Shown here: piece after piece, positions 8,218 through 17,831 of the stretch | How positions within the stretch are numbered: position 1 is the stretch's first letter | Layout of the letters: every line of letters starts with the position of its first letter | Notes under the pieces: model-generated | What the model was told of the DNA's origin: nothing | Seen by the model: only the letters and a program-made list of their open reading frames with translations | Database searches by the model: none | Source: a virus | Reading direction: 5' to 3' (one strand) | Virus record (IMG/VR): IMGVR_UViG_3300003702_000018 | Span: 1 to 30,949 of that record | Length of the DNA stretch: 30,949 nucleotides | Program-made: the position numbers and the translations under genes

Positions 8218-9063
8218 TTAAGCAGATAATCGTTTTGGCCATTTTCCAGATTTAACTAGATCATTAATCACCACTTGTAATCCTTTATCACTAACATGAC
8301 GGTGGGTACTAGCTGCTCGATGCAATGCCATTCCAGATTTCTCACCTCGTTCTCGTTGAAGTTTATACAGTGTAAGAGCAGCTATATATTCCCTCTTAAA
8401 AATCTTCTTACTACCAAATTCTTGAGCCTTCGTCAACAGAGAGGCTTCGTCTATTTCCATCCATTCTCTTAAAGATTTAACTGACATTTTTTGCTGTAAC
8501 TCTTTAAATAATTTTTTACCACCTCTAAACCCTACAGGCAAACCTTTTTGAAATGATTTATAATCGTTATCTTGTGCGGCCGTTCGCATCTTTGATGCAG
8601 ACATGCCCGATATCCCTTCTGCATCTGGGTCACGTGCACCTGCACTCGCCACATTAATCTTATCAAACTTATAAAACCCATGACGTGCCTGTTTACCATT
8701 GTAATCATCTAATAATTTCTGAAAAACTCTAACACGATCTGAACCTACGACCATAGTAAGATTCTTAAATCCCTCATCGTGGAGTTTAACGGCAACATCT
8801 ATTGCAGTTCTAGCTTCATCACTTTTAATATTTCGTGAATGATTACGAAACATACTTTTCATATATTTGATTTTTGTTTCATAATCTAAAGGATTCTTAC
8901 TAGAATCTTGAGAATGAGATGCATAGACACGGTAATTTCTACCACCAATTTTTTTAGTAGCATCTATTAATTTTTCATGCCCGGTAGTAGGTGGGTTAAA
9001 GCGTCCAAAAGTAAATGTTATATCATCTCCTCGAGCTTCAACTAATTTTAAATGTGTTTTCAC
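8218..9063 (-). CDS. Nucleotidyltransferase (NMNAT/cytidylyltransferase-like) with capsid-targeting-like start
   Basis: A 281-residue protein. After a ten-residue leader (MKTHLKLVEA) comes FTFGRFNPPTTGHEKLIDA (about 16-34), whose TxGH is the nucleotide-binding signature of the cytidylyltransferase-like superfamily. ISGMSASKMRTA (about 150-161) matches the superfamily's second ISSTxxR-like motif. These enzymes transfer a nucleotide to a phosphorylated substrate, for example NMN plus ATP giving NAD. The substrate cannot be read here. The C-terminal 90 residues are basic and helical. The start is GTG, overlapping the previous stop (GTGA). The LVE/A in the leader fits a prohead-protease cut, so the enzyme may be packaged. 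Confidence 0.75.
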   Translation of the reverse strand: MKTHLKLVEARGDDITFTFGRFNPPTTGHEKLIDATKKIGGRNYRVYASHSQDSSKNPLDYETKIKYMKSMFRNHSRNIKSDEARTAIDVAVKLHDEGFKNLTMVVGSDRVRVFQKLLDDYNGKQARHGFYKFDKINVASAGARDPDAEGISGMSASKMRTAAQDNDYKSFQKGLPVGFRGGKKLFKELQQKMSVKSLREWMEIDEASLLTKAQEFGSKKIFKREYIAALTLYKLQRERGEKSGMALHRAASTHRHVSDKGLQVVINDLVKSGKWPKRLSA

Positions 9064-9341
9064 TGTGAATCATTATCCCAACGTGTCATCATCAATCGAA
9101 TTTCTTGAACAATATTTTTTATTTCTTTATTGTCCACTTTGATATCAGTAATATCTTTAATAATCTCAGTTTGTTGTACTTGAACAATAGCAATATGCTT
9201 TTCGTTAGTAACAACCTGTTCAATTTTAACCGAATTTTGTTCTACTTGTTGGTCAGTACCTGATGCCCACCATACAGCAGCTGTTGCCTGTGCGATTACT
9301 GCGACCCATATTGTGGGAATAGACCATCCATTTAACATCAT
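9060..9341 (-). CDS. Small membrane protein with coiled coil
   Basis: A 93-residue protein with one N-terminal membrane segment (about residues 8-27, PTIWVAVIAQATAAVWWASG) and a C-terminal coiled coil (about 30-85, rich in Val, Ile, Gln, Glu and Lys). This layout resembles small phage membrane proteins of hemolysin XhlA type and some holin-associated proteins, but there is no family signature. A GAGGAAAAAT ribosome binding site precedes the ATG, and the stop overlaps the GTG start of the nucleotidyltransferase. A role at the membrane, in lysis or injection, is inference. Confidence 0.6.
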   Translation of the reverse strand: MMLNGWSIPTIWVAVIAQATAAVWWASGTDQQVEQNSVKIEQVVTNEKHIAIVQVQQTEIIKDITDIKVDNKEIKNIVQEIRLMMTRWDNDSQ

Positions 9342-9350
9342 ATTTTTCCT

Positions 9351-9713
9351 CTACGACTTTGTTTGATAAATTTTTGCGATTCTCTCCGATTCCTTTTTTC
9401 TTAATTGGGGAATCATTTTCTTAGCTATTTTATTAATCAAAGCTTGTTTTTTCTGAACAATTCTTTTATCCAACATCATTCTTTGCTGTAATGAAAGCTC
9501 ACTATAATCAGCTTGTCCTGAAAATTTCTTGATTACAGCCATTTTTGCTTTTTTGCGAGCCCTCTTTTGTAATTTAGATATCCCCGCTCTCTTCCTTAAT
9601 GCCCGTTTCTTTTTCATTTTAATATCTGAACGCTTTGCCAACCTCGACATTCTACGAGCCATCTTTCGTCGCCCAGCAATATCTAGCGCTTCATATTGTA
9701 AATAACTAATCAT
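9351..9713 (-). CDS. Very basic helical protein, possible prohead-core or DNA-binding protein
   Basis: A 120-residue protein with extreme Lys/Arg content (for example RRKMARRMSRLAKRSD, about 15-30) and a long helical C-terminal half ending in KKMIPQLRKKESERIAKIYQ. I associate proteins of this composition and size with the prohead region of T4-like phages, where they may act as core or DNA-condensing proteins. The N-terminus MISYLQYEALD is a variant of the leader seen on neighbouring packaged candidates. The ATG overlaps the stop of the Cys-rich miniprotein (ATGA), so the two are probably translated together. Confidence 0.65.
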   Translation of the reverse strand: MISYLQYEALDIAGRRKMARRMSRLAKRSDIKMKKKRALRKRAGISKLQKRARKKAKMAVIKKFSGQADYSELSLQQRMMLDKRIVQKKQALINKIAKKMIPQLRKKESERIAKIYQTKS

Positions 9714-9805
9714 TTTTCTTCACACCCACACGGTTCACCAACTGTACAATAACACGGATCACAAATACAATTATCACATGGACATTCTGGATTTTTACAC
9801 ATCAT
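9710..9805 (-). CDS. Cysteine-rich 31-residue miniprotein, metallothionein-like
   Basis: This short gene encodes 31 residues with nine cysteines, at positions 3, 8, 10, 13, 15, 18, 20, 26 and 28, mostly as CxC and CxxC pairs. Such spacing is typical of small metallothioneins and zinc-cluster peptides; the acidic C-terminus (EEK) also fits a metal-binding peptide. It begins with ATGATG after an AGAGGATAAG ribosome binding site, and its TGA overlaps the ATG of the basic protein. It lies exactly between two confident genes, four bases after the stop of the KWDG protein. No signal peptide is present, so it should act in the cytoplasm or the virion. Metal binding is inferred from the cysteine pattern. 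Confidence 0.75.
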   Translation of the reverse strand: MMCKNPECPCDNCICDPCYCTVGEPCGCEEK

Positions 9806-9809
9806 TTTC

Positions 9810-11036
9810 TTATCCTCTTACCCAATTTTTATCAGCTGTAAAATTGGCTCGACTAAACTCCAATCTATCTACCAACTTTAAAGCCTTTCCTATATGGTCT
9901 ATAGCAACAAAACCTTCGGGGGCAGTTACTTTATAGCCATCAGGTGTTTTTAAAAATGTTCCTATACTCTCTGCCTTTTCTAATTTTCGTATCACCATTG
10001 TCTTCGCAGTTTGTAATGAGATATATGTTGCAATAACAAAATACAATGAGGTTTTATGTTTCTTTAACTCCCCTAGACCTACCTTCTTATGTTGGGTCCA
10101 TTTCTTCTTAGCAGCTTCAGTACGAACGGAATCTATTTTTTTCTGCAACACATCTTTATAATAGGTTTCAAATTTTACCAAAACATTTCGTGTGTCTCTG
10201 ATTTGTTCCCCACCTCGAATATATGAATTTAGAAAAATTTTCAATCTCGTACCTAATGCTAAATCTCCCCGAGATTGTGCAAGTGTTCGTAAATATGATG
10301 AAGCTTTCTTTAATGAACCACTTGCCATGTTCAATATATTTTGAAATTGTGTTGCTTCTCTTGGAGTAAATGTTAAATTTCCTGATGTATCTCTAAAAGT
10401 TGCATCAGTAGACCACACATTATTAGTACTATTTAGTTTATTTACACTCGCCCCAAATTTGGCAGACATCGCATCCATTGTCCTACCTGTATAAGTTGTG
10501 TGCCATACTACACCAATCTTCGATCTTTTAATTTCTTGAGCCAACTTATCTTGTGAAGGTACGGCGTAAGTAATTGTGTTAGGTGTAAACACAATCATGC
10601 TAATAGCATCTATGGTGTCTGTAGATAAATCTTCGGATGTATATAACAAATCACCTTGCCAGATGCCTGGTATCTTTAAAGCAGGAAAATATTTTAATGC
10701 GACTTTTAACTTGTCTGCAAGTCCGCCACCATGATTTGCATCTATGTCTGCATTGGTGTAATTAATCTTAGGAGTCTTATTAAAAATCGACTTAGTGCCT
10801 ACAAAAAACTTGTCGTTGTCTGGATTAGTACCAGCGAAAATGGCGGGGGCGCCATCCCACTTAACAGTTACATTCATTGATCGTCTTGTATTACCTTCAA
10901 GCATATCTTTTAAGGCCACCAAAAAATTTATTGCGTTCTGTCCTCCCGCAAAGCCATGATTGAGAATATCATCTTCTAAATGTTCTAGATGGGTATTCTT
11001 ATCTTCAGTTAAAAAAAATTGCGAAAGTGTTTTCAT
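9810..11036 (-). CDS. KWDG-motif protein, nucleic-acid ligase/nucleotidyltransferase-like, probably packaged
   Basis: A 408-residue protein. The N-terminus MKTLSQFFLTED matches the capsid-targeting pattern with an LTE/D cut. The segment VTVKWDGAPAIFAG (about 56-69) contains K-x-D-G, the nucleotidylation motif of DNA/RNA ligases and capping enzymes. FFVGTKSIFNK (about 77-87) and GIWQGDLLY (about 123-131) could correspond to the following strand motifs. I associate this sequence type with an uncharacterised protein of marine T4-like phages (probably DUF6267). The ligase fold is a motif-based inference, and the C-terminal 200 residues are helical without a known domain. The ATG overlaps the previous stop (TAATG). 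Confidence 0.75.
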   Translation of the reverse strand: MKTLSQFFLTEDKNTHLEHLEDDILNHGFAGGQNAINFLVALKDMLEGNTRRSMNVTVKWDGAPAIFAGTNPDNDKFFVGTKSIFNKTPKINYTNADIDANHGGGLADKLKVALKYFPALKIPGIWQGDLLYTSEDLSTDTIDAISMIVFTPNTITYAVPSQDKLAQEIKRSKIGVVWHTTYTGRTMDAMSAKFGASVNKLNSTNNVWSTDATFRDTSGNLTFTPREATQFQNILNMASGSLKKASSYLRTLAQSRGDLALGTRLKIFLNSYIRGGEQIRDTRNVLVKFETYYKDVLQKKIDSVRTEAAKKKWTQHKKVGLGELKKHKTSLYFVIATYISLQTAKTMVIRKLEKAESIGTFLKTPDGYKVTAPEGFVAIDHIGKALKLVDRLEFSRANFTADKNWVRG

Positions 11037-16024: not shown

Positions 16025-16595
16025 AATGACAATACGAATGTAATAGATATTTCTTACCAGATACAGGCTTTAACCCTGCATGATACCACATCCATAGTGG
16101 TGGAAACATCAACATACGTCCTCTCTTTGGTTTAATTTGATATGGTATATAAGTTCCTATTTTCTGTAGATTTGCAAAATGTGTCTCTCCCCCTTCTTCA
16201 ACATCATTCAAGTAAATGAAAAAAGCTAAAAATCTTCTAGCTGTCTCATAATTCAAAACATCTACATGAGAATCGAATCTATCATAATCATTAGGTAAGT
16301 AGCGTTTTATTCGGACAGCTTCATATCCATAATTTTCAGGCCACTGTTTAGCATGAATCTTACAATCAATTTTATATCGCATAATATGATCTTGGAATAT
16401 TTCCATCAGTCCTTCTTGTATTTCTTTCCATTCGGGATGATTGGCTAGTGTTATCTGTTCAAAAGATATTACTCCAGACTGATCTTCCAGATGAACAGTA
16501 TCATAGTATTCGTGCGAATCTTCAAACTTTTCTATTAAAGTTTCACATGAAACTTTATCTAATACATCATCATATATTTTTATAAAATTATCCAT
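16017..16595 (-). CDS. 2-oxoglutarate/Fe(II)-dependent oxygenase (prolyl-4-hydroxylase-like)
   Basis: A 192-residue protein with the double-stranded beta-helix signature of this family: an HxD metal motif in FDSHVDVLNYE (about 103-113), a distal His in MWYHAGLKPV (about 167-176), and a basic residue soon after (GKKYLL) for 2-oxoglutarate. The FIYLND-x-x-EGGET-H-F strand (about 125-140) is typical of P4H-like enzymes. The start is the ATG at 16595, which overlaps the previous stop (TAATG) and has an AGGAAAAT ribosome binding site. The target, whether protein, nucleic acid or a small molecule, cannot be read from the sequence. Such genes are frequent in marine T4-like phages. Confidence 0.85.
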   Translation of the reverse strand: MDNFIKIYDDVLDKVSCETLIEKFEDSHEYYDTVHLEDQSGVISFEQITLANHPEWKEIQEGLMEIFQDHIMRYKIDCKIHAKQWPENYGYEAVRIKRYLPNDYDRFDSHVDVLNYETARRFLAFFIYLNDVEEGGETHFANLQKIGTYIPYQIKPKRGRMLMFPPLWMWYHAGLKPVSGKKYLLHSYCHYV

Positions 16596-16834
16596 TACCA
16601 TTTTCCTAGAGGACATTCAGTTCCTTTGGGCCAAAGAACTTTTAATGGCATATAACAATCACATTCTTTACATAGTGGTTTGCTATATCTATCGCATTGT
16701 TCACAAATTTCTATTCTGATATGAGCTCTATCCAAATGTTCCTGAGAAAGGTTTTTCATCCACGAAAGATATCTTTTATTCAATGGAAGAAATTTCTCAT
16801 TATATTTTGTTAGTAAATCTTTTAGCTTATCCAT
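16595..16834 (-). CDS. Small zinc-binding protein
   Basis: A 79-residue protein with a helical N-terminal half and a cysteine-rich C-terminal half: CEQC, then CKECDC, then a final Cys in TECPLGKW. Four or more cysteines in CxxC pairs suggest one structural zinc site. The C-terminal pattern C-x2-C...C-x2-C-x-C...CP-x-GKW is one I have seen in small phage proteins of unknown function. The start is set at 16834, where the ATG overlaps the uvsX stop, although an upstream in-frame ATG (16855) inside uvsX is possible. It lies between uvsX and the 2OG oxygenase. Confidence 0.75.
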
Positions 16835-17831
16835 AACTAAACTTTTCTTTTGCATAGGTGTCTAATTTTTCCATTATTTCGGGGGTGTAATATTTTTCTG
16901 GATCATTATTGATTGTCTTGCCAAATGTCTTTGTACCATCAGGTAATTCTATACGAGTAGATACTGCCTTAAAAATACCAGCCTCTACCGCCAACTCTAA
17001 CAGACCGTAATACTTATCTAAACCCTTCGTGTAAGACAGCCTAACGTCTACCATTTGATTTTCTTTTGTTAGTCGTGACTTGTATGTCTTACAATGGATG
17101 ATGTTACCTACCACCTCTGTACCATCTTTATCTTTCTTCTTTGAAAGATAAATGATCTGTGAAGCAGCATACTTGAGTCCTGAACCACCACCCATCTCTT
17201 TCTGTGGAAACATAGAACCAATCACATCATAGGTATGATTAGTGAGTATCAATGGCACTCCAAGTTTACCTAATTTCAATGTCAGTACACGAAAAGTAGC
17301 CTTAACTATTTGAGACCTGGTCATATCTCTAGTTTCTTTACCAGCTTCTGTATCTTCAATCTCTTTTGTAGTAGACAACATACCTAAGCTATCAAGGCAC
17401 ATCATCATAGGTTTCTGTTCACTATCTCTATAAGTAGCAAGTACGGCTAATGATTGATGACGAAACTCTTGTACTGTGGTAACTGGTAGTATCACCATAC
17501 GAGTAGAATCTATACCACGTTCCTCAATCATATCTTTAGTGATAGCCGACTCACTCTCAAAGAAAACTACATTGGCCTCTGGATTTTCTTCTAAAAAATT
17601 TTTACAAATACCTAAGACAAAAAATGTTTTGCCTGTTGCTGATTCCCCTGCCAGTGCAGTAATTTTATTTTGAGGTAACCCACCATAAAGGCTACCGGAA
17701 CAAAGAGCATTAAAAATAAAACTGCCAGTACCGACATAACCACTGACATCAGCAGTAGCAAGACCATCACTAACAATTGTACCGTATTCATTTCCAGTTT
17801 CCTTAATTACATTTTTCAAGAAGTTTGACAT
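16827..17831 (-). CDS. uvsX: RecA-like recombinase UvsX
   Basis: A 334-residue RecA-family strand-exchange protein. It has Walker [11 protein letters not shown] (about 57-66), Walker [12 protein letters not shown] (about 138-148) and an LILTNHTYD segment corresponding to the sensor region. It should form filaments on single-stranded DNA for recombination-dependent replication. The start at 17831 is chosen because AAGGAG lies about 8 bases upstream; an earlier in-frame GTG would sit within that ribosome binding site. A 55-residue ORF overlaps its first 29 bases. The location between gp43 and gp41 matches T4. Confidence 0.92.

Follow-up and report, generated by a model that had tools for sequence, protein, structure and literature searches.

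The virus record analysed here in full, 30.9 kb from an uncultured T4-like phage (30,949 bases; hereafter the window), contains a mini-gene for a 31-residue peptide with nine cysteines. On the strength of its cysteine motif, this gene belongs to a large, unannotated family that occurs in many unrelated phages and in some cellular genomes. The gene is accessory, and we think it likely that its product is a metallothionein-like peptide with a role in metal buffering or delivery in the infected cell; in the branch of the family linked to IscU, the metal is perhaps iron.

The mini-gene is located at 9710..9805 (-) and encodes MMCKNPECPCDNCICDPCYCTVGEPCGCEEK. Translation of the window ORF gave 31 codons and a stop, with nine cysteines in 31 residues, and re-reading the window returned the position and cysteine count of the initial annotation. 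The cysteines have spacings of 4,1,2,1,2,1,5,1 and form four CxC motifs. Small size, a very high cysteine content with CxC/CxxC motifs, and few or no aromatic residues or histidines are hallmarks of metallothioneins; the window peptide has no histidine and one tyrosine. Its ATG at 9805 follows the stop codon of the upstream gene (9812-9810) after the four bases GAAA, the minus strand reading ...GTA AGA GGA TAA GAAA ATG ATG TGT... at this point. A second ATG at 9802 is an alternative start that would match the MC start usual in the family. The Shine-Dalgarno-like AGAGGA at 9813..9818 (-), inside the end of the upstream gene and approximately 8 nt from the first ATG, is a good site. At the other end, the four bases ATGA are common to the TGA stop of the mini-gene and the start codon of the gene that follows (ATG, 9713). 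The ribosome binding site and the 4-base gap and overlap with the two neighbors that were reported initially are thus present. We simulated the window (30,949 bases) 200 times with a Markov-1 model, and none of the replicas contained an ORF of 20-60 aa with at least 8 cysteines and a cysteine content of at least 25%, while the real window contains one.

The upstream gene, which marks the insertion site, encodes a 408-aa DUF6267 protein (PF19782 / phrog_455; 9810..11036 (-); E=3.1e-126). Its relatives are mostly from cyanophages and the best is from Pelagibacter phage HTVC008M (52%). A helicase gene followed downstream by DUF6267 forms the same neighborhood in HTVC008M, S-CAM9, P-HM2, and Melnitz-1, and the mini-gene profile had no match in these four phages. 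Other ORFs of the window resemble T4-like replication genes, namely those for DNA polymerase, sliding clamp, clamp loader, UvsX, and a DnaB-type helicase. The neighbors of the mini-gene, described initially as late genes, could not be identified as such. Elsewhere in the window there is a 2OG-Fe(II) oxygenase gene confirmed by Pfam; it is adjoined by a second small cysteine-containing protein (16595-16855), which is DUF6171-like at a score below the cut-off.

We collected relatives of this site through the DUF6267 gene, blind to cysteines. The mini-gene follows DUF6267 in L002/L006, L009, and L016, the only DUF6267 relatives with profile matches to it, and all nine cysteines are in register. 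L002/L006 is a near-identical virus with two residue changes in the peptide, and the DUF6267 proteins of L009 and L016 match that of the window at 69% and 66%. Many other core positions have changed in these orthologues. Between the window and L016, cysteine codons differ at two synonymous and no nonsynonymous sites, and the other codons at one synonymous and 12 nonsynonymous sites. The initial annotation had staked its reading on the cysteines being conserved in close relatives; with 9/9 retained in L002, L009, and L016, a real and easily missed metallothionein-like gene is upheld. In eight other relatives (L007, L008, L011-L015, and L017), some of them near-identical to each other, the mini-gene is absent after DUF6267. 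Instead, the ATG of a WWAS-type gene is found approximately 12-31 bases after the DUF6267 stop, and this gene comes next where the mini-gene is absent. Presence in some relatives and absence from eight at one site shows that the mini-gene is an accessory gene.

The WWAS gene of the window (9060..9341 (-)) encodes a 93-aa small protein with an N-terminal hydrophobic stretch, a WWAS motif, and a weak match to an Rz-like spanin PHROG. Between it and the mini-gene is a gene for a basic 120-aa protein (9351..9713 (-)), previously suggested to be a packaging protein with which the peptide could structure a nucleoprotein. We rejected this partnership. The basic gene accompanies the mini-gene only in the window and L002; L009 and L016 keep the mini-gene at the same site with the WWAS gene directly after it, so the basic gene is not a fixed partner and the nucleoprotein idea is unsupported. 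Nor did a packaging function emerge: the PHROG matches of the basic protein are all to families of unknown function, and it otherwise resembles one segment of a larger phage protein. This segment comprises residues 617-720 of a 754-aa AAA/zeta-toxin-like (zeta-kinase-like) protein (L240), so the basic protein may be a split-off domain of such a protein.

The family to which the mini-gene belongs has the core C-x-NP-x-C-x-C-x2-C-x-C-x2-C-x-C and the consensus M-x-C-x-N-P-E-C-x-C-x-N-C-T-C-D-P-C-x-C-T-x3-P-C-G-C. Scanning DNA for this pattern located the core in at least 119 stretches of viral sequence and in 65 stretches from cellular genomes. Removal of repeats and duplicates left 78 distinct viral peptides, approximately 19 to 70 residues long, that fall into about 20 gene-context groups. 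The window peptide is a member, with a Shine-Dalgarno site ahead of a short stand-alone reading frame that contains C.NP.C.C..C.C..C.C. Such a site precedes 53 of 76 viral members, while its frequency at random ATGs is 6.1%. In 47 of 76, the gene upstream stops between -20 and +30 nt relative to the start. Because many members were collected by their cysteine pattern, family-wide cysteine conservation is partly by construction, and we base our claim of conservation on the sets anchored by DUF6267 and by IscU. Searches of isolated phages with tblastn and blastn returned chance matches only; low-complexity filtering perhaps masks cysteine-rich queries, and isolates may carry members. We regard this as a new and widespread phage family whose members are metallothionein-like and probably bind metal. 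One subfamily (L260, L261, L289, L399, L407, L421, L425, L430, and L447) lies in a head/tail-like gene module, and most of its members end in RGGQ; the L260 member overlaps its upstream gene by 4 nt. The IscU-linked members of L404, L405, L413, L435, and L453 have conserved VAPV or VAAI ends, possibly a degradation or docking signal.

Clustering of neighboring genes revealed one contig group in which one or two A-type carrier genes and IscU precede the peptide gene. IscU lies directly before the cysteine-rich gene in L404, L405, L413, and others, and in L251, L409, L433, and L453 of the same group the Fe-S genes are 1-3 kb away. In a different order, seen in L309 and L269, a nuclease gene is followed by the cysteine-rich peptide, glutaredoxin, and an A-type carrier, with the peptide and glutaredoxin genes overlapping. 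Pfam confirmed neighbors as NifU_N (5.6e-53), Fe-S_biosyn (5e-18 and 1.1e-9), and glutaredoxin; the A-type carrier of L269 scored below the Pfam cut-off (18.5 bits). Glutaredoxin neighbors in L330 and L411 were dropped as Fe-S evidence since the adjacent gene is NrdB-like and these glutaredoxins probably work with ribonucleotide reductase. Overall, 16 of the 78 members have an IscU, A-type carrier, or glutaredoxin gene within 3 kb, compared with 1 of 193 control loci taken whole (0/77 DUF6267 loci and 1/116 loci from a general CxC pattern, the latter set being mostly frame translations of repeats and poly-Cys). The Fisher p of 9e-9 is inflated by relatedness, and the 16 members represent two gene arrangements rather than 16 independent events. 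Starting from IscU, a same-strand member was present at 24 of 80 loci and a family-like antisense ORF at none.

Eleven peptides near IscU genes, collected by IscU and picked by a loose cysteine-content filter only, were used to examine selection. Their cysteine codons differ synonymously (TGT/TGC) in 172 of 495 pairwise comparisons and nonsynonymously in none, whereas in the rest of the core nonsynonymous differences number 389 and synonymous ones 198. Because the pairs are not independent of one another, we give these counts as a description and not as a p-value. A further relative, L532, has a different spacing and could not be aligned.

The IscU and A-type carrier genes are known phage auxiliary genes, and marine T4-like viral genomes that carry them contain further Fe-S genes (PMC5332604). 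This, with the many members directly after IscU and the glutaredoxin overlap followed by an A-type carrier in L309 and L269, would suit a dedicated Fe-S accessory. Instead of buffering zinc or copper, such a peptide would partner with IscU, A-type carriers, and glutaredoxin, and its cargo would be Fe(II), persulfide sulfur, or a labile Fe-S cluster. We consider this unlikely, as such a gene is missing within 3 kb of 62 of the 78 members, and 56 of 80 IscU loci lack such a peptide in the DNA examined. Furthermore, the 31-kb window contains no A-type carrier (PF01521) or glutaredoxin (PF00462) gene by Pfam, and home-made profiles detected no A-type carrier, glutaredoxin, or IscU in the window or its same-site relatives. 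A broader proposal is that a tiny gene passed among phages of many lineages, this one included, encodes a metallothionein-like peptide for handling iron or Fe-S and so adds a new small component to viral Fe-S assembly; we regard it as doubtful.

Metal buffering or delivery remains our preferred reading. Thiolates of CxC and CxxC motifs bind thiophilic metals in clusters, the chemistry of metallothioneins. Those of the window peptide would wrap two or three thiophilic ions, whether Zn(II), Cu(I), or Fe(II), and the resulting cluster would resemble that of the nine-cysteine beta domain of animal metallothioneins. The gene contexts suggest that the peptide would buffer metal or hand it over inside the infected cell. 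This supply could help viral and host metalloproteins mature, and buffering could limit free-metal damage during remodeling of host proteins. Where the gene follows IscU and A-type carriers, the peptide would probably act in Fe-S assembly. Nine cysteines in 31 residues, together with the two contigs in which the gene overlaps that of a glutaredoxin, might also indicate a thiol redox buffer, that is, a reducible cysteine reservoir and glutaredoxin/thioredoxin substrate against oxidative stress in which metal binding is incidental. We judge this improbable because fixed CxC spacing and invariant cysteine positions are more to be expected of metal clusters than of a generic pool of thiols. The conserved C-terminal tails of some subfamilies (VAPV and RGGQ) are potential docking signals and would fit a zinc-folded adaptor that binds nucleic acid or a protein, of host or phage, and acts in host takeover or a nucleoprotein; the window member has no such tail and neighboring genes vary across contexts, making this very unlikely. 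A chance or non-translated ORF, which the very short length and the lack of annotation or a family model might suggest, is the least credible reading in view of same-site conservation, Shine-Dalgarno enrichment, synonymous cysteine-codon changes, and the chance test: the 31-residue, nine-cysteine ORF is a real gene.

Genes of 20-45 codons usually escape annotation. If these peptides bind metal, then metal buffering is a common and overlooked phage function, and the linkage to IscU and glutaredoxin offers a direct, testable route to phage support of Fe-S proteins.

The core is also encoded by short chromosomal ORFs in Segetibacter, Chitinophagaceae, SAR202, Pelagibacteraceae, and others. Contigs of Pelagibacteraceae and one binned as Polaribacter (L333, L344, and L369) have in common a chromosomal cysteine-rich ORF of 39 aa in which the core is the same; its flanks are also similar, so candidate hosts may have their own version. 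Among 119 proteins encoded near cellular members were HxlR (5), AraC-type (5), cation-efflux (2), and ArsR (2) proteins. These counts, which have no background rate, are a mild hint of a metal or stress response.

By its anatomy the window peptide is metallothionein-like, and by sequence comparison it lies outside every curated metallothionein family tested. It had no match in Pfam or NCBIfam and thus to no curated metallothionein, including the bacterial SmtA type; one of 20 members, not that of the window, touched Metallothio_Euk at E=3.1. PHROG models did not match the window peptide (best E=2, in other members), and PDB sequences gave no significant match (best chain 1m0j, E=5.6). No paper on a phage metallothionein was found in the open literature, subscription papers and preprints being outside our scope. 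The animal metallothionein beta domain (MT_nc, PDB 1m0j) shares nine cysteines arranged as CxC/CxxC pairs in approximately 25-30 residues, and its spacing of 1,5,1,3,1,2,1,2 resembles the window spacing read backwards (1,5,1,2,1,2,1,4). However, the order is opposite and the window peptide has a tyrosine between two cysteines; the likeness is probably convergent. Bacterial SmtA/BmtA are alike in small size, high cysteine content, and prokaryotic setting, but the window peptide is much shorter and has no histidine; SmtA binds 4 Zn (PMC10612145). Some members share gene clusters with the Fe-S auxiliary genes of marine T4-like phages (IscU, A-type carriers, and Grx), yet a cysteine-rich peptide is not among the described viral Fe-S gene sets, and neither cysteine-rich proteins nor metallothioneins are named in the main text of PMC5332604. 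The same C-x-NP-x-C-x-C-x2-C-x-C-x2-C-x-C motif occurs at the N-terminus of CopY/BlaI-type repressors (Penicillinase_R, PF03965) in Acidimicrobiia-type MAGs and a Dormibacterota MAG (L335, L354, L363, L371, L375, and L385, with the domain confirmed for two). These proteins, in which a DNA-binding domain is joined to the motif, may be metal-sensing regulators that have gone unrecognised, whereas the window peptide is free-standing.
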